A DNA stretch of 41,067 nucleotides, taken from positions 5,337-46,403 of IMG/VR virus record IMGVR_UViG_3300030328_001789, one strand, 5' to 3'. Within the stretch, counting starts at the first letter, position 1. Every line of letters begins with the position of its first letter. Origin of the DNA: a virus. Positions 8,222 to 35,554 of this stretch are shown here, piece by piece. Made by a program: the position numbers and the translations under genes. A model generated the notes under the pieces. That model did no database searches. It was not told the origin of the DNA and saw nothing but the letters and a program-made list of their open reading frames with translations.

Positions 8222-8315
8222 ATTTAAAATTAATTTTAGTACTGTTCTCTAGGTATATGTGAGTAGGTACTATCTCTTAATGCCTTTCTAGTATTCATTT
8301 TATGTTCACTTCGTT

Positions 8316-8820
8316 CACGACACAAGCAATGGGATAGAACATTGGGGGGAAATTAATATCATTTAATTACTTGCGTTTGTGGGGTATTCCTGTATTGTGT
8401 GTCTTGTGTTTGGGAATTGTCGTTGTTTTTAACCCCTTTCTCGACCACGACCTAGAGAGACATTCAGTTGTTTCCCAAAGTAGCCCTCGCAACGAATGGC
8501 TACGATTTTGATTGCCTTGAGCAGTCAGGGGTATTGGGGTTCAACGCTACGAATACGAGGTAACCTGAAAATCCTCATCTCGCAAAATCCGAGTTTCAAT
8601 ACTTTTGGGCGTTTATTCAGGGCTGTGTTAGTGCTGGTATTGGTCTAAACAAGACTTTTATTCCCCTCTGAGTACAAACCACTAGTTAAAAAAAGACAGC
8701 TAATACTTGCTGGAAAAATGATGTTTTAGATGAGCCTAGCAAACTCATAGTGCTAATTCTCATGGTGTAGTTACTTTTCCTCAGGGGCTAGTTGGGTAGC
8801 GTGTAGTGAGAAAATCCCTA
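8316..8820 (+). ncRNA. Candidate large structured noncoding RNA (approximate ends)
   Basis: About 500 bases without a credible gene on either strand, visibly more GC-rich than the neighbouring coding DNA. Many helices can be drawn: 8319-8326 with 8403-8410; 8327-8331 with 8340-8344; 8351-8356 with 8363-8368; 8411-8416 with 8472-8477; 8419-8423 with 8447-8451; 8480-8485 with 8498-8503; 8531-8536 with 8597-8602, enclosing 8557-8560/8573-8576 and 8579-8582/8590-8593; 8697-8700 with 8709-8712; 8730-8734 with 8744-8748; 8780-8783 with 8807-8810, enclosing 8787-8790/8797-8800. Nested multi-branch architecture of this size recalls the large ornate phage RNAs (GOLLD, ROOL), but I see no diagnostic match. 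The plus strand is assumed because a hammerhead-like element follows on that strand. The ends are guesses, and a low-complexity leader is the alternative. Confidence 0.45.
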
Positions 8821-8835
8821 ACATTGATTTGTTTT

Positions 8836-8893
8836 TTTCTGATAGTTGGATGTGTTATCCAGCCTGAAGATTGCGAAAGCATGAAATCAGAAA
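8836..8893 (+). ncRNA. Type III hammerhead ribozyme candidate
   Basis: All parts of a hammerhead fall in order. Stem III: 8836-8843 with 8886-8893, 8 bp. Cleavage triplet AUA: 8842-8844. Stem I: 8845-8851 with 8857-8863, 7 bp including one U-G pair. Core CUGAAGA at 8864-8870 matches CUGANGA. Stem II: 8872-8874 with 8879-8881, closed by a GAAA tetraloop. Core GAAA: 8883-8886. Predicted cleavage is between 8844 and 8845. One defect is a U-U mismatch (8871/8882) where G10.1-C11.1 is usual. It ends 22 bases before the start codon of the next gene and follows the large structured region, so self-cleavage could separate that RNA from the mRNA. Confidence 0.7.
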
Positions 8894-8915
8894 CAATATA
8901 TTTTAGGAGTGAAAT

Positions 8916-9287
8916 ATGGATATTAAATTTAGTAAATTTTTAGTTGATGGTGAGGTTGTCTTAGGAAAAAAAGTTGAGAAAGCCATAAAGCATATTGATG
9001 CATCATTTAAAAAATGGTGGGATAAAAACAATGAGGATTATGGTTTAAGACCTATTGATTTCTCAAAAAATTCTTATTGTCTTAAAACTTCCTGTTTATC
9101 TACAGGTGAGCAGATGAAAAATCAGGTAACCATTTGTTTTGATGGTGGCTTTGTTTATGACTTCGTGAACAGCACATATTCTGAGTATTATGAGGACACA
9201 GATTATGACTTCTTTGAGGAAGTATTTGGTCTAAAAGGTTATGAGTATGAGGATTATTCCTCATGGGCTATTACTGTTTATCTTTAA
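8916..9287 (+). CDS. Hypothetical protein (123 aa)
   Basis: An unrecognised soluble protein, rich in Asp, Glu, Tyr and Phe. Its C-terminal third is strongly acidic and aromatic ('YSEYYEDTDYDFFEEVFG'). No membrane segment or catalytic motif. An excellent ribosome-binding site (TTTTAGGAGTGAAATATG) follows the hammerhead candidate, and a strong terminator follows at 9304-9329, so it forms a one-gene unit. Its high acidity and small size would suit a DNA mimic or host-inhibitor protein, which is speculation. Confidence 0.7.
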   Translation: MDIKFSKFLVDGEVVLGKKVEKAIKHIDASFKKWWDKNNEDYGLRPIDFSKNSYCLKTSCLSTGEQMKNQVTICFDGGFVYDFVNSTYSEYYEDTDYDFFEEVFGLKGYEYEDYSSWAITVYL

Positions 9288-9303: not shown

Positions 9304-9329
9304 AGAGGGGCTTTTTAGCCCCTCTTTTT
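9304..9329 (+). terminator. Rho-independent terminator after the 123-aa gene
   Basis: Stem AGAGGGGCT (9304-9312) pairs with AGCCCCTCT (9317-9325) around a TTTT loop, followed directly by TTTT. The last T of the tract is also the first base of stem III of the next hammerhead-like element. Confidence 0.88.
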
Positions 9330-9390
9330 ATTGTCGCTGAATTAACAGCCTGAATGAGAATCCTAAATTAATGGGGTTCAAGAAACAATA
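9329..9390 (+). ncRNA. Hammerhead-like element, degenerate core
   Basis: Stem III: TATTGT (9329-9334) with ACAATA (9385-9390). Cleavage triplet GUC: 9333-9335. Stem I: GCTG (9336-9339) with CAGC (9346-9349). Core CUGAAUGA (9350-9357) is the hammerhead CUGANGA with one extra base at position 7. Stem II: 9358-9363 with 9374-9379, opening with the canonical G-C pair. Core GAAA: 9382-9385. Two extra A residues lie between stem II and GAAA. With an insertion at each core junction it may be inactive or a variant. It overlaps the preceding T tract and ends 17 bases before the next start codon. Confidence 0.5.
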
Positions 9391-9407: not shown

Positions 9408-9635
9408 ATGAAACAAGTAGAAAAATTAGTCAGGGCAATAACCCTGATAAATGATGCTCTTGAGGTTACAAAAACCTTAGGGGATGATATTCAATATCCT
9501 TTATTGGACTGTGAAACAGCTATTTATAAAAAGGCTAAAATCATTGATTTAAAAATAATGAATTTAGATTTAAAAATTGATGTGCTTGAAGATAAAATTA
9601 GCCAACAGCACAAACAAAAAAGTGAGGTCAAATAA
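9408..9635 (+). CDS. Hypothetical small coiled-coil protein (75 aa)
   Basis: Unrecognised. The C-terminal half ('KKAKIIDLKIMNLDLKIDVLED') has regular Ile/Leu spacing and would form an amphipathic helix or coiled coil. A good ribosome-binding site (TATAGGAGTGTAAATATG) follows the hammerhead-like element. Its end, SEVK plus stop, overlaps the next start in the sequence AAGTGAGGTCAAATAATG, which is repeated exactly at the next junction. Confidence 0.6.
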   Translation: MKQVEKLVRAITLINDALEVTKTLGDDIQYPLLDCETAIYKKAKIIDLKIMNLDLKIDVLEDKISQQHKQKSEVK

Positions 9636-10377: not shown

Positions 10378-10504
10378 TCTGAGTGTTCTGAGGAGTATTT
10401 GAAACAATACGAAATCACTTAATTAGGGGTATCCCTAGCCTTATAAAAATCCCTTTTATGAGGTGTGCATCAACACAAAATTTTCATTATTTTATGGAGT
10501 AATT
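10378..10504 (+). promoter_or_regulatory. Structured leader upstream of a tandem small-gene cluster
   Basis: 127 bp without a gene. It contains three hairpins: TAGGG/CCCTA (10424-10428 with 10433-10437), a 10-bp stem 10439-10448 with 10454-10463 (one G-U pair, loop ATCCC), and TGTG/CACA (10464-10467 with 10474-10477). No T tract follows, so this is not an ordinary terminator. It may stabilise or regulate the mRNA of the following genes. CTGAGGA and GAAAC strings at 10388-10405 recall a hammerhead core, but the flanking stems do not form. Confidence 0.45.
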
Positions 10505-10672
10505 ATGAAAAAAATATACGAATCAAATTCGCTTAAGGTGTATGCGAATAAAAACAAAAAACCTTTAATCGTTTCTAAAAAAGAAACTAACCCAGCCATG
10601 AGGATAGCTTTTGAACAAGCTATAGATAAGGCTATATCTAGCCTAATGGCTAAGGAGTATGCGAATGGATAA
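10505..10672 (+). CDS. Hypothetical small basic protein (55 aa)
   Basis: Unrecognised, Lys-rich: N-terminal 'MKKIYESNSLKVYANKNKKP', then a helical segment. I chose the ATG at 10505 because TATGGAG lies six bases upstream; a longer frame from a GTG at 10463 would run through the leader hairpins. The C-terminus 'KEYANG' is written by the next gene's ribosome-binding site and start codon (GGAGTATGCGAATGGATA). Confidence 0.6.
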   Translation: MKKIYESNSLKVYANKNKKPLIVSKKETNPAMRIAFEQAIDKAISSLMAKEYANG

Positions 10673-11821: not shown

Positions 11822-11878
11822 ATGATTGTCGTATGGAAATGGTATCCATGCTTGAATAAGAAACCTCGAAACAATCAT
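11822..11878 (+). ncRNA. Hammerhead-like element with altered 3-8 pair
   Basis: Stem III: ATGATTGT (11822-11829) with ACAATCAT (11871-11878), 8 bp. Triplet GUC: 11828-11830. Stem I: 11831-11837 with 11845-11851, 7 bp, with the same G-C/U-G opening pairs as the 8836 element. Core region: UUGA-AU-AA at 11852-11859. Stem II is minimal (GA/TC, 11860-11861 with 11866-11867). Core GAAA: 11868-11871. Relative to CUGANGA, C3 is U and G8 is A, so the known C3-G8 contact would become U3-A8; position 7 holds two bases as in the 9329 element. Possibly a variant or decaying ribozyme. It lies in the leader of the MoxR gene. Confidence 0.45.
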
Positions 11879-11919: not shown

Positions 11920-12903
11920 ATGAAAGCAAAACAGATGATGAAATCGCTTTCCACTCTCATTTCAATATCCCAGCCCAGCTTTGTTTGGGGTGGTGTTGGA
12001 ATTGGTAAATCAGAGATGATTCATTCAGTTGGAGAATCTCTAGGCTATCAAGTGAGAGATGTGAGAGTGGCGTTGCTCGACCCTGTTGACTTGAGAGGCG
12101 TTCCCTCAGTTGAGGATGGAGTAACTAAATGGAATCCACCTGTATTTTTACCTACAGAGGATGAGCCAAAGACTTTATTGTTTTTGGATGAGTTACCACA
12201 TGGTAGCCCTAGCGTTCAAAATGCCTTATTCCAGCTAGTTAAAGATAGAAAACTAGGAGAATACACACTTCCTGATTCTACAGTAATTGTAGGGGCTGGA
12301 AATCGTATTCAAGATAGGGCTGGGGCTAATCGTGTGAATACAGCGTTAGGAGATAGGTTCATTCATTTGAATCTTGATGTTGATGCAGATGAGTGGGTAG
12401 ATTGGGCTAAAGAAAGTGGGCGTGTAATCCCTGAGGTTATCGCATACATTCGTTATCGACCTGAGAATTTGTTTGTGTTTGATACTAAGGCTCAAGTACA
12501 GGCTACGCCTCGATCATGGGAATATGCATCAAGAATAATGGCTACTAGCCCTGATTCAGATATTGAACAGGAACTATTAGCTGGAACTGTTGGTGAGGGT
12601 GTAAGTGCAGAATTGATTGGGTTCTTAAGAACCTGTAGATCATTGCCCTCAGTAGATCAAATTATCAATAACCCTGAGGCTATTGATCTTGATAACGACC
12701 CAGCAGTTATGTACGCAGTATGTAGCATTATCGCTAGGAAAATGACTAAAGATAACATAAAGAAATTTATGAAATTCTTAGATACTTTGCCTGATGAATT
12801 TGCAATTTTGTGTATGAGTGATGCAGTCATTGGTAATCCTGATCTGAAAAAGACTAAGGCTTACATTGACTTTGATGTTAAGCATCAAGAACTCACTCTC
12901 TAA
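11920..12903 (+). CDS. MoxR-family AAA+ ATPase
   Basis: 327 residues from the ATG at 11920 (GGAG ten bases upstream; an ATG at 11893 is the alternative). Walker A 'GGVGIGKS' at about 24-31, 'DPVDLRGVPS' at 54-63 typical of the MoxR/CobS clade, Walker B 'LLFLDE' at 86-91, sensor 1 'GAGNR' at 125-129 and arginine finger 'GDRF' at 144-147. MoxR ATPases remodel or load partners that carry von Willebrand A domains, and the gene is followed two places later by exactly such a protein. CobS-like ATPases occur in marine myophages, but here the partner genes are also present. It is preceded by a hammerhead-like leader and followed by a hairpin. Confidence 0.88.
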   Translation: MKAKQMMKSLSTLISISQPSFVWGGVGIGKSEMIHSVGESLGYQVRDVRVALLDPVDLRGVPSVEDGVTKWNPPVFLPTEDEPKTLLFLDELPHGSPSVQNALFQLVKDRKLGEYTLPDSTVIVGAGNRIQDRAGANRVNTALGDRFIHLNLDVDADEWVDWAKESGRVIPEVIAYIRYRPENLFVFDTKAQVQATPRSWEYASRIMATSPDSDIEQELLAGTVGEGVSAELIGFLRTCRSLPSVDQIINNPEAIDLDNDPAVMYAVCSIIARKMTKDNIKKFMKFLDTLPDEFAILCMSDAVIGNPDLKKTKAYIDFDVKHQELTL

Positions 12904-12906
12904 GGG

Positions 12907-12929
12907 TATAGGGGCTATATGCCCCTATA
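12907..12929 (+). other. Perfect 9-bp hairpin after the MoxR gene
   Basis: TATAGGGGC (12907-12915) pairs with GCCCCTATA (12921-12929), loop TATAT. No T tract follows, so it may be an attenuator, a processing site or an mRNA-stabilising hairpin rather than a full terminator, allowing expression of the following partner genes. Confidence 0.65.
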
Positions 12930-12934
12930 TAAAT

Positions 12935-12948
12935 ATTAACCATTTAAT
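12935..12948. repeat. ATTAAC palindrome copy upstream of the MoxR partner gene
   Basis: ATTAAC-CA-TTTAAT, six bases past the hairpin and 14 bases before the next start codon. Its right arm has one mismatch to the palindrome consensus. Confidence 0.5.
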
Positions 12949-12962
12949 ACATAGGAGTACTT

Positions 12963-13835
12963 ATGGGAAAGTTAAATGAAAAGGCTATGCTTGTGAAAGT
13001 AGAGTTGAAAAAATGGGGTGGTACTAAAACTGATAAGTCTTTAGCAGAAGAAATCAGCGATAACCATTCTACTGATTCAAGCCTCTACTCTGTATCAAAA
13101 AAGCTAACGAAAAATGCCACTTTGAAAGCTATCAAGAAAATTGATGGCTTGATCAGAACTGATTGTATTTATTCAGGGGCTGGATACAGAGGCTTTTGTC
13201 ATGCATGGGATAACAATGGAAACTATCTCTTACCTATTGATGCAAAAGATAGGTTTGAGAAAAGGTTTGCTGAGTACAGGGATGAGAGAGAGGCATTAGT
13301 AAAACAATTCTTATCTGAGTATCCTGATATTATTGATGATGCAAGGGTGCAGTTTGGCTCTACATTCAATGAAAGTGATTTTCCTCATCCTAATGAGATT
13401 GAGGATTGCTTTTCTTGTGAGGTCATAAAGAACCCTGTTCCATCTACAGATGATATTCGTGTAAACCTATCCTCAGATGAGATTGAGGAACTTAAAGCTA
13501 ATGGCAAGGCTCAAGAGGATGCTAAGATCAAAGAGATTACAGGTTCTGTAATTGATAAGGTCAATGGCGTTCTTGGTCATTTCTCAGAGAAAATTAAAGC
13601 TGGAGAAACATTCAGAGATTCTACTTTAGATAAAGTGATTGATCTTTGTGATGTCTTACCAGCCTTAAACATTGATGGAGATTCACAGATTCATCAAGCA
13701 CATCAATCATTGATGGATGTATTTCACAATACAGATGTTGATGCTAAAACTCTAAGAGAAGATAAGGACAAAGCAAAAGAAGTTGCAGATGCCTCAGATA
13801 AAATCTTAGAGGAGTTATCAGGATGGGTGGACTAA
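12963..13835 (+). CDS. Middle protein of the MoxR-VWA module (DUF3150-like)
   Basis: 290 residues, charged, mostly helical. An N-terminal Lys-rich region is followed by 'SGAGYRGFCHAWDNNGNYLLP' near residues 71-91, a long helical stretch 'DRFEKRFAEYRDEREALVKQFL', and a C-terminal half rich in Asp, Glu and Lys. I associate this layout with the DUF3150-type proteins encoded between MoxR ATPases and metallopeptidase-VWA proteins; this is recall, not a search. It may be the substrate adaptor or scaffold of that machine. Good ribosome-binding site (ATAGGAGTACTTATG). Overlaps the next gene by 13 bases. Confidence 0.6.
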   Translation: MGKLNEKAMLVKVELKKWGGTKTDKSLAEEISDNHSTDSSLYSVSKKLTKNATLKAIKKIDGLIRTDCIYSGAGYRGFCHAWDNNGNYLLPIDAKDRFEKRFAEYRDEREALVKQFLSEYPDIIDDARVQFGSTFNESDFPHPNEIEDCFSCEVIKNPVPSTDDIRVNLSSDEIEELKANGKAQEDAKIKEITGSVIDKVNGVLGHFSEKIKAGETFRDSTLDKVIDLCDVLPALNIDGDSQIHQAHQSLMDVFHNTDVDAKTLREDKDKAKEVADASDKILEELSGWVD

Positions 13836-14965
13836 TGGAAATCTATAAACCCATGAAAAAAGCTAGGTCAGAACTACTAATCAAGCATCACTTTTTTGGC
13901 AAACTAGTGATGCATCTTGAGTTAGTGGAAACTGATCAAGTGGATACTATGGCTACAGATGGTTCTAAAATCTATTACAACAAGGATTTTGTGGACACTT
14001 TAACTCATCAAGAAATTGTTGGGGTTCAGGTGCATGAAGTACTCCATGTTGTATTCAAGCATCATCTCAGGCGTGGCAAAAGAGATAAGCACTATTGGAA
14101 TGTTGCTGGAGATTATGTAATCAATGCAGTTGCCAAAGAGGGTGGATTCATTTTACCTGAGGGTGCTTTGTTCAATCCTGATTATGCTGGGATGAGTACA
14201 GAGAAAATTTACAGCCTTATTTACAATGATGCTGAACTCAAAGAGCAACACGCTAACATCTCCTGTGCTGGTGAAGTCATTGATGCTGTTAATGAGCAAA
14301 CAGGCAAAGAATTGACTGAGGTTGAGATCAAGGAACTTGAACAAAAAGTAACCCTTGATGTCATACAGGCAGAGCAGTCAGCTAAAAATGTTGGTCAAGG
14401 TGGAGATGCTTTCAAAAGCATGATCAATTCTGTAAAAACTCAATCTGTAGCATGGAATGAGGTCTTATGTGATCTTGTAGTATCTCAACATACTAATGCA
14501 GATTATAACTTCAACAGGGCTAATCGCAGATTCATATATCAAAATATGTATTTGCCTAGTGTTGAAAATGAGCCTTTACTTACTTTGTGCTGGGGCTGGG
14601 ATGTTTCAGGCTCAGTAGAAGAAGAAGAAAAAGCTGTTTATACAGATATTATCAACACAGTAAATGCCACATTGAATGTAGGCAAAAACATAATTATTTA
14701 TTGTGATAATGCTGTAAGAAAAGTTGATGTCTTTGAGCAAGGTGAAGAAGTAGAACTTGAATACTATCGTGGTGGTGGTACAGACTTTGAGCCTGTATTC
14801 AAATACATAGACAAAGAGTTAGACAATGAGATTGATTCTCTTGTTTATCTCACAGATGGCTATGGATATACAGATGAGAAGTATGAGCCTGATTACCCTG
14901 TATTTTGGGCTACTACAGGCACTTCCCAATACTTCAAGTTTGGAGAGGTGGTTGAGGTTGATTAA
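13823..14965 (+). CDS. Metallopeptidase-like protein with C-terminal VWA domain (DUF2201-like)
   Basis: 380 residues. The N-terminal part has a zinc-peptidase motif 'HEVLH' at 71-75 followed by 'HHLRRG' and 'WNVAGDYVIN' (92-101), the arrangement of DUF2201 putative metallopeptidases. The C-terminal part is VWA-like with a MIDAS: 'DVSGS' (260-264), 'GGGTDF' (317-322) and 'LTDGYG' (343-348). VWA proteins are the usual partners of MoxR ATPases, which here is encoded two genes upstream. The likely product is a MoxR-driven chelatase- or protease-like complex acting on an unknown target. The ATG at 13823 has GAGGAG upstream; 13835 is an alternative. Confidence 0.85.
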   Translation: MGGLMEIYKPMKKARSELLIKHHFFGKLVMHLELVETDQVDTMATDGSKIYYNKDFVDTLTHQEIVGVQVHEVLHVVFKHHLRRGKRDKHYWNVAGDYVINAVAKEGGFILPEGALFNPDYAGMSTEKIYSLIYNDAELKEQHANISCAGEVIDAVNEQTGKELTEVEIKELEQKVTLDVIQAEQSAKNVGQGGDAFKSMINSVKTQSVAWNEVLCDLVVSQHTNADYNFNRANRRFIYQNMYLPSVENEPLLTLCWGWDVSGSVEEEEKAVYTDIINTVNATLNVGKNIIIYCDNAVRKVDVFEQGEEVELEYYRGGGTDFEPVFKYIDKELDNEIDSLVYLTDGYGYTDEKYEPDYPVFWATTGTSQYFKFGEVVEVD

Positions 14966-15464: not shown

Positions 15465-15476
15465 GACGAATCTTAT

Positions 15477-15533
15477 AGCGATAGCTACTGAATACAAACT
15501 TAAAATACTAATACTGTAGCTATCGCTTTTTTT
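15477..15533 (+). terminator. Long-loop intrinsic terminator
   Basis: A perfect 12-bp stem, AGCGATAGCTAC (15477-15488) with GTAGCTATCGCT (15516-15527), a 27-base loop, and a T tract through 15533. Confidence 0.82.
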
Positions 15534-15537
15534 AAAC

Positions 15538-15551
15538 ATTAACTGATTAAT
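15538..15551. repeat. ATTAAC palindrome copy
   Basis: ATTAAC-TG-ATTAAT, identical to 11652-11665 and followed by TATTTAAAGG. It sits between a terminator and the first gene of the next transcription unit, a position where a promoter or operator is expected. Confidence 0.55.
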
Positions 15552-15569
15552 ATTTAAAGGTAAAAAAAT

Positions 15570-27022: not shown

Positions 27023-30000
27023 CTAGTTGCTTAAATCTAAGTTGCTTGATCTAGCTTGGGGTTCTATCTCTCGATAATAGAATTTTCTTAAGTCTGGTAC
27101 ACTTGCCAAAACATCATTTCTATTTTCTTTAATCTGTAGCAGTAACTCAGCTTTTTGCTGTGAGTTAAAATTAGGACTGTTTCTTACTTGGGTTTCTAAC
27201 TCTCGTAACTCAGCTAACTCCTCAGCGTATTCACCTAGAGTTGAATCTATCTCTTTCAAAGCATCAGCCATTCCTAAATTATATTCATCTGTAAAACCTA
27301 AAGCACCAACATCACCCTCGTCAACTAATTTTTTTTCTAATATTCCAAAAGCCCTTCGCAAATCTGCTGCATTTCTATAAAGGTCATAAAATAAATTTTG
27401 TTTTTGAGTTCCTTCTGGGCTTGCAACAAATGAACTTATAACTGGTAATTCATATAATTGTTTTTCAGGTGCTGGTACATCGGAAAAATTATCTTTATAT
27501 ATTTGATCTGCAATACTAATAGCATACCCACCTAATGTTCCGCCATATCCTCTTACAGTATTCTCTACATACAAAGGACTTGTATCCCACCAATCACCTG
27601 CAGCTTTAAACATTTCAGGAGTCGTTGCTCTATAAATTAACTGACCATCTTTATCTGCCATTGTTTCTAAATAGCTAGGAATAATTTTATTGCCTGTATA
27701 AAAATCATAGTTCAACCAATTTTCTGCGATTGGTTCTATAGCAGAAACTTGCAATGGATTAATGGCAATAGTTGACATAGATATTTTTTTAAATGCATTA
27801 ATAGAATCTCTGCCTTCATCCGTACCATCCATATATCTAAGCATTCTTTCTGGAAAAGTTACAGCCAATGCACCAACTTCAAAAGCTTTTGGTATTTTAA
27901 ATGTATATCCAGTAGGGTTCATACTGCCGGGTATAATAATATTATTATTGATAATATCATCATCCATTTCTTCGTATTCTTCAGAATCTCTTACTAGCAT
28001 ATAGTAGTATGTAGCACCAGCCATAACAGCTAATACTCTACTCCACACACCTGCCATTCTTGGTGCTCTACTTAAAGTTTTTCCAATACCATATCTGCCA
28101 ACTAATCCTCTACCAAAAACATCTACACCTTGTATTCTTGGATTTAAAAACATAGTCCAACTAGCTAAGTTTTGCATTAAAGGATTGTTTCCTTTTTTAG
28201 TAAAGTTTAATACTTCTAATGCTTGAAAGTTAGCCTCTGCTAAATTACCTGTTCTATTAATTGTATCTTCCCAAACAGCCATCCTACCTGCAGCATCAAT
28301 AGCTGGGTTAACTTCACCAAACAATTCCCAAAGCTTTACGAAAGCGTCAAATGGTAATGTTGTAATTTTTCTAATAGTTGAACGAGATTGTTTTATTTCT
28401 TTGTTATATAATTTTTTAACTAATTCTTCGGTGTCTGTAACTGTAGAAACAACATTGTCATATCCTGTTACTATTCCTGCTCGTCTTAATTCAAGATAGC
28501 TTTCTGGTAAATTACCTGTAAGTTTGCCAGTTAAAACTTTAGCAAAGTTTTTAAACTGTGAAACAAAAGGTATTTGTTTATTTAATCTTGCACCAGATAA
28601 AGCAGTAACTGAAAAAGTTTCTCTCATAAAAGCAGCAATCCAAAAGCTAGGCGACAATGTAATAAGCTGTGATCTTATTGATTTAACTGATTTAAAAAAT
28701 CTATCAACAATAGAACCTGCAGAATTTTCTATAACATAATCTCCATTTAAAAATATAGTAGCTGCTTGGTATCGTGAAGGATCAACAACTTGAAAAGTTT
28801 TTGTTTCTCCTTCTACTCTAATTCTTACATGACCAACTTTAGGTCTTGGACCTTTAGTTCCTTTAACTTGTTTGGCAGTACCCTCTAAAACAAAGTTACG
28901 CATTGCTCTATTCATAGCAACATTCTTCATTCCCATTGTAATAGCTGCTCTTAAATTTCTAGATATACCTGTAATTGGATCAACAATATCTTTAGTTTCA
29001 CTACCTTTAGCTACTTTAAATGGATTAATTGATAGCCCACCAAATATTTGTGGACCTTTAAATCCTGTTTCCATTCCTTCTAATGGTCTAAAGAATGGTA
29101 TGTAATCACTATTAGCTGTCCATATGTTTGCTGTTTTTTCTGTAAGCATTCCAGTATCTACAAGAAACTGCACGATATGTTTATTCCAAAACTGATATTG
29201 ATCAGCCATTACCTGTAACTCTGGATAATCTTTTAATGCTTGGGCTGCTTGTTTTCTGTGGGCATCTGTAACTTTTACTGCTCTACCTTCTTTATCAAAT
29301 CTAGTTTCTCTTTGTACACGCATGACTGCCTGCCATAACATTAATTTATTACCATCATTATTTCTAAGTATGCCTTCAAATATTTTAGCTGGTGGTATTA
29401 CTTCTTGTCCTTCAAAACCTTTTAAGTTAGATGCACTTCTTACAGTAGTTAATCCTTGTTCTTTGTCATAGATTGGAAACCCATGTTGAAAAGATTGCAT
29501 AAATATCTCGCCTGATCTATCAGCAAAAAATGCAGCAGCAGCAGCAGAATTACTAGCAAGTAAAATCTTATCTCCTATTTCTGGATTTTTTCTACCAACA
29601 GAATAATCAGAAGCAACAAGCCCTGAGTATCTATCTATAATTTCTTCTCTTAATTTACTTGGAGCAAAAGTATTTTCAAACTCATATTTACCTTTAAGCA
29701 ATAAACTGATGGTGCTTTCTTTACCATTTATTTCATCATATACAGTAAGGTCGCTAATTAAATCCATTGCATTATTATTTAATGGCTTACTATTTTTTAA
29801 TGAGTATTTAATTCTATTTGGATTACTGATAGACGAATCAATAACATCGTTAGGATTAGGATCGGAAGGAGTATTCTTGCTTAATTTAAGTTGTTCGAGT
29901 ACAGCATACTGTGCTTCAGGAGAAGCCTTGCTACTTACAAGAGAGGTATAATTTCCTGCTCTTGCTTTGTCTTCTTGGGCTTTGACTTCAATGACTGCTT

Positions 30001-33000
30001 CTTCAATAGCTTCAGATAGTCTTGTTCGTTCTGCATAGCTTTGTCGAACATCTCCGATTCCAATTTGTCTTGGACTTCCGAACTGGCGAAATAGTTGGGT
30101 ATTGTCTTCTTCAACTGTCTGTTGCCCCTGTGCAAAGTTATTATTTAAGAACGCAAAGTTAGTTACTAAGCCTGTTCTCTTTAATTCATTATAGGTATCT
30201 CTTGGCGTATTATCAACATCAACAAAATAATCTGTAGCTATAAGCCTTCCGCTATCTACAAATCTATTTAACATTCTAATTAAAGCATGGTTAAAGTCTG
30301 TATCAATAAGACCAACACTTACTTTATAGCCTTTATCTTGTAGCATTTTTATTTTCTTTTCTATGCTCTGATACTTTCTACTACTACCAACACTAGGAAT
30401 AATAATGTTACTACCATTATCGCTTAATGTTTTTAATACTATATTGCTATATTCACTTGACATAGGTGCGACTGAGTTAGCACCTAGTCCACTACCAAAT
30501 CCCGGCAAGATTCTTTTAGCATCATCTGAATCTATAATGGCTGCTTGTTGTTCTATTGCTAGTTGTTCTGCATAAAATGATTTACCTGATGCTGGTAAAC
30601 CAATTAAAATTGTAGCTTTCTTACCTTGTTCTACAGTATTACCTGCATAACTATTAGCTTTATTAATTAAATCTAATACAGTTTGTGTTTGTATTTCTTC
30701 TTCGTATATAGGAATGCTAAACATTCTTTGTTCAGCTTCGACTAATGAAGGATGATTAAGTAATTCTAATAACTGCTCTTGATTAATAGATGAAAGATCA
30801 ATGTCATTAATTAATTGTTTTAATTTATTTTGTTCATTGGCAAACTCTCTATCATCCATTGTTCTAAGAATAGGTTCATTTAATCCACCTAATCCTAATA
30901 GTTCTTGCTGTATAAACTCTCTAGTATTTTCTTCGCCTTTGAATTTTTCTTTTTGTATTCTTTCATGAATTTTTTTAACTTCTATTTCAGGCACTCTATC
31001 TATACCAGATATTTCTAAGTCTTCTCTATTAACAAGCAACTCCATTTCATCAGCATAACTATATTCTTGTAAAGAAGTTTGACTTTGTATAGGAGAAAAA
31101 TTAATTTGACTTTTTGGTATCATTAATGCGTTCATATTAGCAAGAACTTTTGATTTAGGAATTAAAAATTCTTGAACAACTACTGGTTGTGGATCAACTC
31201 TATCTTTTGCAGTTCCTACATATTGTGATGCAAAAATATTTGCTGCTTCTTTATTTGTTGTAACAGGAATAACATTGTATTGATCTTTAATATTTCCGCC
31301 TCTATATACAACAATATATTCAGGAAAATTTTCTAATGATGCATCTGTAATTTCTTTAATTATTTCTTGTGCATTTGGAATTTGATTAATAGTTTCTGTG
31401 TTGTCTAATCCATAATCATTAATTTGATTAGAATAACCTTCAGTTATAGTATTTAAATCATTTTCTAAAGTAGCAGCTATAAAATCAGAGCCTTTTCTTT
31501 TAGATATTTCAATTAAAAATGGTAATAAATTATTACTTGAAGATGCAATATTATTAATTGCATCTTTTAAAGATGTTATATTAAGATCAGTATCAGTTTT
31601 AACATAAGTTTCTAAATTATTATAATTAGCTTCTTCCATTAACTCTTGAACTGTAGCGTTATCTAATCTACCTGCTGTTCTTTTAAGACTATATTTTGTT
31701 CTAGGTGATTGACCTATTAGTGGTTCAATGTTTTCTTCTGATACTTTATTTAAAGGAATGCTGCTAGATTCTATGCCAAATAATTGTTCTCCTTGTTTGT
31801 TATAAGGATTAGACATGGTGGCATCACCTGCATTATATATTCTAGGATGAAAGCCTACTGCCCTAAGAGGAACATTAACTGTGGTTACTTTAGTTTTATT
31901 ACCTAATGGTGTGTAATATAAATGACCTTGTAGCTGTGCAGTTCTTATAGCATCAGCCTTGCTTCTATGCATAGTAGTAAATGTACTTCTAGAAACATCT
32001 CCTACTAAATACATGGGAGTTGTATTGTCTGGGTTTACTTCAATTAATCCTTTTTTAATATCAGTTTGTAAAGCTATTTGAGATAACATTCCAGTTACTG
32101 ACATAAAATTTCTTAATTCTTTTGGATTGTTTAAATCTTGCTTCCTTCTTTTAATAAGAAAGTTAGATAGTATTTCATCTTTGTTTTCAGAAACATTTGT
32201 AAACACATCCATTTGATCTGTAAATTGATTGTGCTTTAATCCAAAAAGAAACTCTCTTGTTAATGGACTTGCTCCTGATTTAGTTAAAGAATATTTTAGT
32301 TGTGGTGCATCAGACATTCTTGAATAGAATGAATCTTCTACTTCTTCAGTATCAATCCCAGCAGCTTTAGCTGTTTGTATAATGTTTTCAAAACCAGAAT
32401 TAACTCTGTCTAGTTCTAATGTAGTTCTAACTATGCCTGTTTCTCTGTTGCTTATATTTCCTTTTTGAATTTTGTTAAATATATCTGTAGCATTTTGAAA
32501 ACCATTATCTTGAAATGCATTGCTAGTTTTTTCAAAAAAGTTAGAAACTTTATTAAATATTTGTTGCGGTTTACCTGTAATACTTTTTTTATTTTTTGCA
32601 AAATCTTCAAAGGCTCTAGCAATAGCTTCTTCTACTACAGTTGCCTCATCTGTTACTCTTTTATCTGCACTTGCTTCAACAACATTTTCTCTTATAGATT
32701 GTTCGTAATAAGTTTCTTTTGATCCTTTAGGTTTTTTATTTAATACATAGTTTTTGAGTGTTGTATATTCAGATTCATTTATTACATCAGCTTGTCTTAA
32801 TGCGTGCCAATTTTCATGTACTAAAGTTACTGCTAATTCTGATAAATATTTTTCAGGATTATTTTTATAATCTTGTCCTGCCCTATCTATAGGAATTATT
32901 ATTTGATCAAATACAGGATTATAAATACCTGCTGCATCACTTACTATTTGTCCTTGTGTATCTGTTAAATAATCTACAAATTTAATACCTGTACTTTCTA

Positions 33001-35554
33001 AACCAATTTTTTTAAATTGTTCTAACAAAGAAGATTTAATTTTTTCTAATCTTTGATTATCATTTACTTCGCCTTCAAGTTTTAAACTTCCATCAAAGTT
33101 ATACTTTTGATTGCCTGTTCCAACAAATTTATATCTACCATTTGTTTCTTTAACATAACCAGCAGTTACTAAATCTTCTCTTAGTCTTTTTGCTTCTTCG
33201 GCATTTAATGATGTGTTGTCTTGGATTGTTTTTAAACTTGGATTGTTTAATTTAATGATAGCTTCTAGTGCTTTAGAGTAGTCATTGAGATTGTATGTGC
33301 GTGTAGAAAAATCAGGCAATGGTATTGTCTGAGATGATTGTGGTAATTCATTAATAGCTGCGTATAAAATTCTGCGTTGAGCAGCACTCATGCTATCTAT
33401 ATTAGTTTCACCAGTTAGTTGTAAAGCTAATCTTTTAAAAGCATTACCATTAAAATCTACATCAATATTTTTTTGTTTAAATAATTTTTTTAATTTAGGA
33501 ATAGAAATATTATCTAACTTAGAAATTGTAATTAATTCTTCATAAGTTGGATCAGCTTTAAAATCTTCTGCTCTTTGATTTATTATTTTGTCAAACTGAG
33601 ATTTAGATAAAATATTTTTTAATTCACTTATAGAGATAGAATTTTTTGAACCTGTAGCATTTTTAATTAACTCTAATGTCTGTGCATTTATATCTAATTC
33701 TTCAAGTTCTTGTATGCTTATACCATCATAGTATGGGTTGTTTAATATTCTGCCTAAACTTTTTATAGTTGGATTATCTTTATCAGCATTTTGCATTAAC
33801 AATATATCTTGAGTTGTATCTATTGCATATTGTATTTGGCTAATAGAACTTAATTCTCTTTGTATCTTTAATGCTTGTTGTTGTGATTGATAAGTATAAG
33901 TTTGGTTTGTTTTAGGGTTTACTAATGGATTACCTGTAACATCATAAATAGTAAATGTTCCATCTTCATTTGTTTTAACTGTAAATGCATTTGGATATTG
34001 ACCTGTTTCATTACTTACAACTGTAGGAAAGTTTTCAGGACTTCTTGAGCTATCTGTAAAATCTTCGTATATTTCAAATGCTATTTTAAATTCTGGAGAT
34101 GCATCTATAAATTCATCAATAGCTTGTGAATATGCTTCTTCTGGAGTTTGATTAACATCTTCTAATATTTTTGCTCTTGCTTTTACTTGTTGTTTAAGAC
34201 TTTCAGATTTTTGTCCATCTATTTCTTTTGCTCTATTTATAGTATCTTCAAATTGAATTTGTTTTCTTAGATGATTTTCTTGTGCTACATTTTTAGCTCT
34301 TACATATTCATTTCTACCTGCTGATAGCTGTGCAAATGTAACTTCTACAGGGGCAAATGCAAATTCACCTATTGCTTCAAAAGCTATGTCAGCATAGTTT
34401 AGGTTTTCTCCTTCTTCTAAGTTAAAGTATTGAGCTAAAGCCTCACCAGTAGCTCCTAGTGTTGCTTGTATAGGTGATTGTGCTGATGAGTTAATAGCTG
34501 CTCTAGCCATCCAATTTTGTACTTTAGCTGGTGCTAATACTTTAGTTCCTATTCCAAAAGATATAGCGTCTAAAGAACCAATAGCAATTCCACGCTTAGT
34601 TGAATATAATTCTGCTGCTTCTATTAATTCTTCATTACGATAGGCAGCATCTAAAGATACTGGGTCTGTAACATCTACACCTTTTTTAGTTAAGTATTCA
34701 AAGAAAGACCGATTTGCATCTATTACTCCTGAGGTAGTACCTGCTGCTGCTGCACCTGCAAATGGACCGCCAATTACAGTAGCCATTGCTCCAGCAGCTA
34801 AAGACTGAACCATAGGTACTGAACTTAATCCTAAAATGTCTCCAACTATATCAATTTTTTGAGATAGTGTTGTGCCTTGTGTAAGATTGTATAAAACATT
34901 TTCTTTATTAGGATATTGACTGGTTATCTTTAACGCATCAGATTGTAGTATCTCATTTGCTTTGGCTTGTTCTTTACTTGTCTGTTCAGTTAACTCAGTT
35001 TTATAAGCATATAAACCAACTTCAGTTGCTCTATCTTTTTTTTCTAATTGCTGTTGAGCCATAAACCCAAAGTTTGGTGCTCCAAAACCTGTAGGCATTG
35101 TAAGAGTAGGTAGCTCATCTCTTTGTTTATCAACTTGTGTACCATTTAAAATTAAATTTAGTCTATCTATTTCTTCTTGATTGCCTTCTGCAGTAGCTAT
35201 TTCTAATTGTTTTTCTATTTCTTGTACTTGAGAATCTATACTTCTATATTCTTTTTGCAGTTTATTAATTTGAGTTTCGAGTAAACTTTGCTCTACTTGT
35301 TTACCAAAAGAATTGCCTTCTTGATACAAACCATACTCTTGTAGTTCTGCTGGAGATACATAGTCTGGATCGTCAGGTCTTGTGCCACCTAAACCTGTTA
35401 ATGCATCTAAACCAAAACCTGCTGCAGTTGCTCCTTGTGTACGCAAATAAATTTGTGAGTCATCTTGTGGAGTAAAATCTGGCTCAGAGTCTTCTAATGA
35501 TTCATTATATAAACCATATTTTTTTAGTTCTTCATCAGAAAAATTAATAGCCAT
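27023..35554 (-). CDS. Giant polyvalent virion protein (2843 aa) with LPD38-like C-terminal region
   Basis: Multi-domain protein. Gly/Ala-rich hydrophobic stretches lie near residues 235-400. Residues 913-917 are 'HENWH', a zincin-type site. YRGG at 1417-1420, a TT pair some 12 residues later and EME at 1503-1505 fit an R-S-E type ADP-ribosyltransferase. 'GLPASGKS' at 1652-1659 starts a zeta-toxin/kinase-like P-loop. From about 2285, 'LSPSFWIAAFMRE' (2300-2312) marks a large-polyvalent-protein domain of the LPD38 type, with a possible membrane helix near 2503-2522. Polyvalent proteins are packaged in virions and injected to neutralise host defences and remodel host factors. It is the last gene of the minus-strand structural block, consistent with an internal virion protein. 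Confidence 0.75.
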   Translation of the reverse strand: MAINFSDEELKKYGLYNESLEDSEPDFTPQDDSQIYLRTQGATAAGFGLDALTGLGGTRPDDPDYVSPAELQEYGLYQEGNSFGKQVEQSLLETQINKLQKEYRSIDSQVQEIEKQLEIATAEGNQEEIDRLNLILNGTQVDKQRDELPTLTMPTGFGAPNFGFMAQQQLEKKDRATEVGLYAYKTELTEQTSKEQAKANEILQSDALKITSQYPNKENVLYNLTQGTTLSQKIDIVGDILGLSSVPMVQSLAAGAMATVIGGPFAGAAAAGTTSGVIDANRSFFEYLTKKGVDVTDPVSLDAAYRNEELIEAAELYSTKRGIAIGSLDAISFGIGTKVLAPAKVQNWMARAAINSSAQSPIQATLGATGEALAQYFNLEEGENLNYADIAFEAIGEFAFAPVEVTFAQLSAGRNEYVRAKNVAQENHLRKQIQFEDTINRAKEIDGQKSESLKQQVKARAKILEDVNQTPEEAYSQAIDEFIDASPEFKIAFEIYEDFTDSSRSPENFPTVVSNETGQYPNAFTVKTNEDGTFTIYDVTGNPLVNPKTNQTYTYQSQQQALKIQRELSSISQIQYAIDTTQDILLMQNADKDNPTIKSLGRILNNPYYDGISIQELEELDINAQTLELIKNATGSKNSISISELKNILSKSQFDKIINQRAEDFKADPTYEELITISKLDNISIPKLKKLFKQKNIDVDFNGNAFKRLALQLTGETNIDSMSAAQRRILYAAINELPQSSQTIPLPDFSTRTYNLNDYSKALEAIIKLNNPSLKTIQDNTSLNAEEAKRLREDLVTAGYVKETNGRYKFVGTGNQKYNFDGSLKLEGEVNDNQRLEKIKSSLLEQFKKIGLESTGIKFVDYLTDTQGQIVSDAAGIYNPVFDQIIIPIDRAGQDYKNNPEKYLSELAVTLVHENWHALRQADVINESEYTTLKNYVLNKKPKGSKETYYEQSIRENVVEASADKRVTDEATVVEEAIARAFEDFAKNKKSITGKPQQIFNKVSNFFEKTSNAFQDNGFQNATDIFNKIQKGNISNRETGIVRTTLELDRVNSGFENIIQTAKAAGIDTEEVEDSFYSRMSDAPQLKYSLTKSGASPLTREFLFGLKHNQFTDQMDVFTNVSENKDEILSNFLIKRRKQDLNNPKELRNFMSVTGMLSQIALQTDIKKGLIEVNPDNTTPMYLVGDVSRSTFTTMHRSKADAIRTAQLQGHLYYTPLGNKTKVTTVNVPLRAVGFHPRIYNAGDATMSNPYNKQGEQLFGIESSSIPLNKVSEENIEPLIGQSPRTKYSLKRTAGRLDNATVQELMEEANYNNLETYVKTDTDLNITSLKDAINNIASSSNNLLPFLIEISKRKGSDFIAATLENDLNTITEGYSNQINDYGLDNTETINQIPNAQEIIKEITDASLENFPEYIVVYRGGNIKDQYNVIPVTTNKEAANIFASQYVGTAKDRVDPQPVVVQEFLIPKSKVLANMNALMIPKSQINFSPIQSQTSLQEYSYADEMELLVNREDLEISGIDRVPEIEVKKIHERIQKEKFKGEENTREFIQQELLGLGGLNEPILRTMDDREFANEQNKLKQLINDIDLSSINQEQLLELLNHPSLVEAEQRMFSIPIYEEEIQTQTVLDLINKANSYAGNTVEQGKKATILIGLPASGKSFYAEQLAIEQQAAIIDSDDAKRILPGFGSGLGANSVAPMSSEYSNIVLKTLSDNGSNIIIPSVGSSRKYQSIEKKIKMLQDKGYKVSVGLIDTDFNHALIRMLNRFVDSGRLIATDYFVDVDNTPRDTYNELKRTGLVTNFAFLNNNFAQGQQTVEEDNTQLFRQFGSPRQIGIGDVRQSYAERTRLSEAIEEAVIEVKAQEDKARAGNYTSLVSSKASPEAQYAVLEQLKLSKNTPSDPNPNDVIDSSISNPNRIKYSLKNSKPLNNNAMDLISDLTVYDEINGKESTISLLLKGKYEFENTFAPSKLREEIIDRYSGLVASDYSVGRKNPEIGDKILLASNSAAAAAFFADRSGEIFMQSFQHGFPIYDKEQGLTTVRSASNLKGFEGQEVIPPAKIFEGILRNNDGNKLMLWQAVMRVQRETRFDKEGRAVKVTDAHRKQAAQALKDYPELQVMADQYQFWNKHIVQFLVDTGMLTEKTANIWTANSDYIPFFRPLEGMETGFKGPQIFGGLSINPFKVAKGSETKDIVDPITGISRNLRAAITMGMKNVAMNRAMRNFVLEGTAKQVKGTKGPRPKVGHVRIRVEGETKTFQVVDPSRYQAATIFLNGDYVIENSAGSIVDRFFKSVKSIRSQLITLSPSFWIAAFMRETFSVTALSGARLNKQIPFVSQFKNFAKVLTGKLTGNLPESYLELRRAGIVTGYDNVVSTVTDTEELVKKLYNKEIKQSRSTIRKITTLPFDAFVKLWELFGEVNPAIDAAGRMAVWEDTINRTGNLAEANFQALEVLNFTKKGNNPLMQNLASWTMFLNPRIQGVDVFGRGLVGRYGIGKTLSRAPRMAGVWSRVLAVMAGATYYYMLVRDSEEYEEMDDDIINNNIIIPGSMNPTGYTFKIPKAFEVGALAVTFPERMLRYMDGTDEGRDSINAFKKISMSTIAINPLQVSAIEPIAENWLNYDFYTGNKIIPSYLETMADKDGQLIYRATTPEMFKAAGDWWDTSPLYVENTVRGYGGTLGGYAISIADQIYKDNFSDVPAPEKQLYELPVISSFVASPEGTQKQNLFYDLYRNAADLRRAFGILEKKLVDEGDVGALGFTDEYNLGMADALKEIDSTLGEYAEELAELRELETQVRNSPNFNSQQKAELLLQIKENRNDVLASVPDLRKFYYREIEPQARSSNLDLSN

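Follow-up and report, generated by a model that had tools for sequence, protein, structure and literature searches.

The stretch at positions 8836-8893 of an uncultured phage sequence raises two questions: whether it encodes a genuine hammerhead ribozyme, and what such an element would do in the leader of a phage mRNA. The window, meaning the whole stretch of DNA analysed here, covers 41,067 of the 46,403 bases of an IMG/VR virus record, and its coding content is that of a tailed phage, including terminase, portal, primase-helicase and Sak single-strand annealing protein genes.

Architecture of hammerhead 1

A first-pass annotation had read this stretch as a type III hammerhead with predicted cleavage at 8844/8845, placed in the leader of a 123-aa gene. 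All the hammerhead elements that it listed are present in 8836-8893, the cleavage position it predicted follows from the hammerhead architecture, and the leader placement holds as well, with the 123-aa gene starting at 8916. The components are as follows, where families A, B and C refer to the alignments described below.

8836-8893, plus strand: hammerhead 1, type III, family A, cleavage triplet AUA, U10.1-U11.1 mismatch, in the leader of the gene at 8916
8836-8843 (TTTCTGAT) with 8886-8893 (ATCAGAAA), plus strand: stem III, 8 bp
8845-8851 (GTTGGAT) with 8857-8863 (ATCCAGC), plus strand: stem I, 7 bp
8864-8870 (CUGAAGA) and 8883-8886 (GAAA), plus strand: core strands
8871-8882, plus strand: stem II, UGC(GAAA)GCA inside U10.1 (8871) and U11.1 (8882)
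8844/8845, plus strand: cleavage site predicted from the architecture, between A17 (8844) and G1.1
8916-9287, plus strand: gene after hammerhead 1, 123 aa; a different gene, of 111 aa, occupies this place in L003

The core positions C3 U4 G5 A6 N7 G8 A9 are provided by CTGAAGA (8864-8870) and G12 A13 A14 by GAA (8883-8885), the A15.1-U16.1 pair is formed by A8886 and U8843, and an unpaired H17 (A8844) precedes the cut. Stem II, for which closure by G-C or by U-U, known as an active natural variant, is expected, is closed by U8871·U8882. The minimum free energy fold of 8831-8900 consists of the hammerhead 1 stems (-16.6 kcal/mol, z -2.8), and only 1 of 200 shuffles folded as well. A descriptor scan built without knowledge of the relatives and run over the two strands of the whole window returned three matches, each of them on the plus strand in a gene leader. 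In twenty Markov-shuffled versions of the window there were six matches in total (about 0.3 per window), none with more than 13 bp in stems I and III together, compared to 15-16 bp in hammerhead 1.

For the 123-aa gene, searches found no family match, and no protein homologue among the cultured phages searched. In the close relative L003, a 111-aa gene (L003 4109-4444) lies directly behind hammerhead 1 and before the 123-aa gene, so that the gene following the hammerhead is exchangeable.

Further hammerheads in the window

The first-pass annotation had also mentioned degenerate copies nearby. These turned out to be three further, distinct hammerheads, one of them of type I:

9329-9390, plus strand: hammerhead 2, type III, family B, GUC triplet, loop I AAUUAA, cleavage predicted at 9335/9336, in the leader of the gene at 9408; core variants are two bases (AU) at position 7 and an AA insert before G12
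9304-9325, plus strand: terminator-like hairpin, whose U tract runs into the stem III 5' arm of hammerhead 2
10383-10476, plus strand: hammerhead 3, type I, AUC triplet, cleavage predicted at 10471/10472, in the leader of the gene at 10506; stem I GTGTT/AACAC, CUGAGGA, 5-bp stem II, stem III with one bulged C
11822-11878, plus strand: hammerhead 4, type III, family C, GUC triplet, cleavage predicted at 11830/11831, in the leader of the ATPase gene at 11920; variants are two bases at position 7, U3-A8 for C3-G8, a one-pair stem II and a loop I-loop II pseudoknot
11920-12903, plus strand: MoxR-like ATPase gene (phrog_1297), with relatives that carry a type I, II or III hammerhead in the leader

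Hammerhead 3 came from a scan for the core plus stem II; we assign it to type I, with stems I and III read by eye, and it is conserved in L003. The close relatives L003 and L004 both keep hammerheads 1 and 2, and L003, whose contig reaches further, also keeps hammerheads 3 and 4.

The four hammerheads occupy untranslated gaps between tightly packed early-gene blocks on one strand. The genes between them overlap or abut, and the hammerheads therefore mark gene-block boundaries. Between 8916 and 15464, with gene starts chosen by us among the available ORF starts, each inter-block gap of at least 120 nt contains a hammerhead; shorter gaps, such as 12904-12962, and the 105-nt gap at 15465-15569 contain none. 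The latter gap instead holds a terminator-like arrangement, in which a T run comes after a long hairpin (AGCGATAGCTAC...GTAGCTATCGCT).

Relatives and covariation

Searches with blastn matched the hammerhead 1 region to phage contigs that are otherwise different (for instance L082, 85% over 60 nt, E 2e-10), and the pattern of hammerhead 2 led to 51 viral contigs, in which numerous further family A and family B hammerheads came to light. By our reading of the IMG sample codes, we take these contigs to be largely marine. In the collection of cultured phages searched, a family B element gave short chance matches only.

Because the alignments were assembled from descriptor hits, the 90.8% of cells found paired in family A (24 sequences, including hammerhead 1) is partly built in for stems I and III, but the kinds of changing pairs are not, and 14 of the 19 pairs changed on both sides. 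Family A reached a covariation score of 0.665, whereas slid pairings stayed at or below 0.14, with the caveat that related sequences inflate the shuffle control of covariation; all three stems covary, as a three-helix junction demands. The corresponding scores were 0.340 against at most 0.05 for family B (28 sequences) and 0.488 against at most 0.11 for family C (11 sequences), in which hammerhead 4 is represented by its L003 copy, identical to the window over that stretch. The A15.1-U16.1 pair is invariant in the three alignments. Core invariance in family A stems in part from selection, since the core letters were set in its descriptor; the initial collection of families B and C allowed looser cores.

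The first-pass annotation had called the U-U at 10.1-11.1 the only defect of hammerhead 1. The mismatch is real, but it is conserved across the family and should not be seen as a defect: 18 of the 24 family A sequences lack a standard pair in this column, the aligned rows having U·U. Loop I of family A is nearly always GUGU-like and loop II is A-rich, a pattern that fits a loop contact without showing one. In family C, loop I (GGUA or AGUA) forms a covarying pseudoknot with the loop of stem II (UACC or UACU), and in the sequence of hammerhead 4 U3-A8 replaces C3-G8, both sides having changed together. The unusual cores of hammerheads 2 and 4 are conserved or covarying in relatives. A model built from family C only (11 sequences, including the L003 copy of hammerhead 4) returned as its top three in the window hammerhead 4, hammerhead 2 (E 4e-5) and hammerhead 1 (E 0.046).

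A search with the ATPase identified about twenty further contigs. Those with 60-78% protein identity have a family C type III element with covarying stems in the leader; at about 50% identity, a type I hammerhead was read by eye in the leaders of L026, L027, L030, L032, L034 and L037, with an A9-to-U change and with stem III changing in step across the set; and at 33% identity (L036), the leader carries a type II hammerhead scoring 40.1 bits with Rfam RF02276, above gathering. No hammerhead was found by eye or scan in L029, which has the same ATPase gene, and none was seen in the ATPase leaders of the more distant L039, L040 and L042.

Taken together, the covariation and the many homologous elements in other phage contigs strongly support a genuine type III hammerhead architecture at 8836-8893.

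Performance of the Rfam model

The covariance-model search suggested by the first-pass annotation was run and came back empty: RF00008 (Hammerhead_3, gathering score 48.5 bits) reported nothing at 8836-8893 even at E<=10, and no Rfam family reached its gathering score anywhere in the window. Matches to L20, rimP, Moco and STnc50 lay far below gathering and were treated as chance. The same RF00008 model scored hammerhead 3 at 19.7 bits (E 0.035) and a G-C-closed phage relative in L063 at 37.3 bits (E 2.5e-7), below gathering, and it missed both the canonical-core relative at L100 3981-4037 and the U·U relative in L044. The absence of an Rfam match is therefore no evidence against hammerhead 1, and the lack of a covariance-model hit, which had been offered as grounds for refutation, is a weak test, since even a fully canonical core did not suffice for one relative to be reported. 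As a standard RNA library misses nearly all the elements described here, ribozymes of this kind are probably under-counted in phage genomes.

Hammerhead arrays in related phages

Related phages carry up to six hammerheads each, often one per gene, with three to six in a row on one strand. When models R1 and R3 were run on 20 whole records, G001 presented five family A matches and one family B match in a row, and G003, G009, G010 and G013 presented four or five places each, some of them matched by two models. The order in L100, which is part of G009, is as follows:

L100: hammerhead, 120-aa gene, type I hammerhead (read by eye), ATPase gene, hammerhead, DUF3150 gene, hammerhead, DUF2201 gene, hammerhead, 290-aa gene, hammerhead, 81-aa gene

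In the window, the cassette at 11920-14965 comprises the ATPase gene, a 290-aa gene and a DUF2201 metallopeptidase/VWA gene; L100 has its ATPase, DUF3150 and DUF2201 genes in the same order as this cassette, with a hammerhead before each.

A Shine-Dalgarno site and start codon lie 59-103 nt past the cleavage site in 73 of 75 distinct elements, compared to 21% of random window positions. The 50 nt preceding the elements are also more structured than shuffles, with mean z values of -3.1 (family A), -1.9 (family B) and -2.3 (family C). The intergenic regions of L099 and L100 contain an inverted repeat, TATTTACYAGTAAATA, within a long AT-rich hairpin before several hammerheads (for example L100 3945-3985). 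In the family B leaders of L044-L093, a hairpin GACNN-CUCCA-NNGUC ends precisely where cleavage is predicted; because the same nucleotides serve as its 3' arm and as the 5' arm of stem III, the two folds are mutually exclusive.

Proposed transcript self-cleavage and its alternatives

The position of four hammerheads at the breaks between early-gene blocks suggests that the phage probably cuts its own long mRNA into gene-sized pieces, and we consider it likely, judging from sequence, that these elements divide the early polycistronic transcript into block-length mRNAs without recourse to host RNases. The repeated succession of hairpin, ribozyme, ribosome-binding site and gene on the coding strand fits self-cleavage of a long transcript, and the same suggestion was made for clustered prophage hammerheads, for which cleavage was shown (Perreault et al. 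2011, PMC3088659). The architecture, its covarying conservation, its placement before gene blocks, and the upstream hairpins and repetition in related phages are all directly seen.

During synthesis of the polycistronic RNA, each of the four hammerheads would fold and cut itself, hammerhead 1 at 8844/8845. From general hammerhead chemistry, we infer that the upstream RNA would then carry a 2',3'-cyclic phosphate at its end, in most cases preceded by a hairpin, and that the downstream mRNA would begin with a 5'-OH and a leader of about 35-90 nt (71 nt for hammerhead 1). This leader would retain the 3' part of the ribozyme, the Shine-Dalgarno site and the start codon. The presumed benefit to the phage of splitting its transcript into block-length mRNAs in the cell would be independent stability and translation of each block.

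Three observations count against this proposal. Hammerhead 1 is its weak point, since it precedes the first gene of the operon, with no upstream gene on its strand, and would only trim the leader. Families B and C have core insertions, and low activity has been reported for a natural insertion that follows A6 (PMC3088659). Finally, the gene gaps at 12904-12962 and 15465-15569 are free of hammerheads.

The departure of families B and C from the consensus core, together with the slow cleavage reported for the A6a insertion (PMC3088659), also lends itself to an alternative explanation, namely that these leaders contain a hammerhead-derived fold that does not cleave and acts as an mRNA stabiliser or protein-binding site, catalysis having decayed at least in the variant-core members. 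A position before the ribosome-binding site would suit such a leader element. We nonetheless regard this explanation as unlikely. C3 U4 G5 A6, G8 A9, G12 A13 A14, A15.1-U16.1 and H17 are kept as the stems vary freely (in family A partly by selection), C3-G8 changes only jointly, to U3-A8, and the cut triplets vary among AUA, GUC, GUA and AUC yet remain NUH. Moreover, the occurrence of all three circular permutations before the same gene is not predicted by a purely structural role.

Still less probable is that the hammerheads serve mainly to gate translation, with an upstream anti-Shine-Dalgarno loop holding the ribosome-binding site until cleavage frees it. A CUCC sequence complementary to the downstream UGGAGG is found just upstream in 28 of 39 distinct family B elements, in many cases within the hairpin GACNN..NNGUC that ends at the cleavage site, but this loop is absent from all the elements of the window. 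Cleavage is predicted to make the site more accessible in 11 of the 21 elements that have CUCC, and likewise in 25 of the 42 family A elements that lack it, so that the loop makes no visible difference.

A selfish or retrotransposon-like role, in which the hammerheads would produce circular RNAs or RNAs of unit length like those of retrozymes and satellites, is known for hammerheads elsewhere (PMC4918200) and may be envisaged. We give it very little credence, because each element here precedes a different protein gene with its own ribosome-binding site, and because the elements belong to different families and permutations instead of being copies of one unit. Chance resemblance to a hammerhead, to which the lack of an Rfam match even at E<=10 might point, is already refuted by the covariation, and the shuffle control, the dozens of homologous elements and the failure of Rfam to report a canonical relative or to score L063 above gathering (37.3 bits, E 2.5e-7) leave it a negligible probability.

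Self-cleavage of the transcript, the reading that we favor, bears on a long-standing problem, the role of phage hammerheads having been obscure since their discovery. Their recurrence gene after gene with covariation, the narrow distance to the start codon and the upstream hairpin in relatives make transcript cutting directly testable in a defined operon. A broader proposition has three parts: that an uncultured phage lineage uses hammerheads as general intercistronic punctuation (hairpin, ribozyme and Shine-Dalgarno site, about one per gene or block, with permutations freely exchanged at the same boundary), that families B and C represent natural, active hammerheads whose core is enlarged (position 7 holds two bases, and AA may precede G12), and that many family B cleavages free the ribosome-binding site from an anti-Shine-Dalgarno loop. 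Taken jointly, we put these forward as a tentative and rather doubtful possibility. The conservation of the enlarged cores suggests that natural hammerheads may tolerate insertions considered damaging.

Comparison with known systems

The type III elements described here share with RF00008 the strand order, the CUGANGA and GAAA core, the A15.1-U16.1 pair, the NUH cut triplet and an open stem III. They differ in scoring below gathering or going unreported, in the U·U at 10.1-11.1 of family A, in the additional base that families B and C have at position 7 and in the AA before G12 of family B. Natural U10.1-U11.1 variants have been described, U-U reportedly allowing more cleavage than the other mispairs, as have natural U3-A8 and A6a variants (the latter of low activity) and loop pseudoknots (PMC3088659).

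The prophage clusters of Perreault et al. 2011 (PMC3088659) likewise have several hammerheads flanking single genes or short blocks, as do the four of the window; here, in contrast, some uncultured phages carry about one per gene, enlarged cores are conserved, and all three permutations occur in the leader of one ATPase gene. The L036 element shares type II with RF02276 and sits in the leader of a distant (33%) ATPase relative, differing from the window element in circular permutation and in phage. Theta ribozymes of gut phages (PMC10879173) are also phage-encoded self-cleaving RNAs that process phage transcripts, but they have an HDV-like fold and lie mostly beside tRNAs, not in mRNA leaders.

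Phage hammerheads and their clusters have been published, as have closure by U·U, the U3-A8 pair and loop pseudoknots; what is new here lies in the density, the core variants and the interchangeable types. In the accessible literature, we found no report of the hammerheads of this phage group, nor of a density approaching one per gene, the enlarged family B and C cores or the exchange of three permutations before one gene; some of the elements may already be listed in the dataset of Perreault et al. 2011.

The leader upstream of hammerhead 1

The first-pass annotation had described hammerhead 1 as joined to a large structured RNA, a claim that the sequences do not bear out. The leader at 8240-8915 folds like its shuffles (z 0.09) and was not taken as a structural RNA, and a functional unit of the two finds no support either, as L010 and L014 keep parts of the leader with no hammerhead seen before the first gene. 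Within the collection of cultured phages searched, the leader had no DNA match. Parts of the leader further upstream are common to L009 and L010, and one stretch directly upstream of the operon's first hammerhead is conserved more widely:

8749-8818 (AGGGGCTA...GTGTAGTGAGAAAATCCC), plus strand: conserved leader stretch (82%, E 8e-10), about 80% conserved in L022-L025, L043 and L059

Elsewhere in the window, positions 27023-35554 on the minus strand are taken up by a single ORF of 2843 aa.
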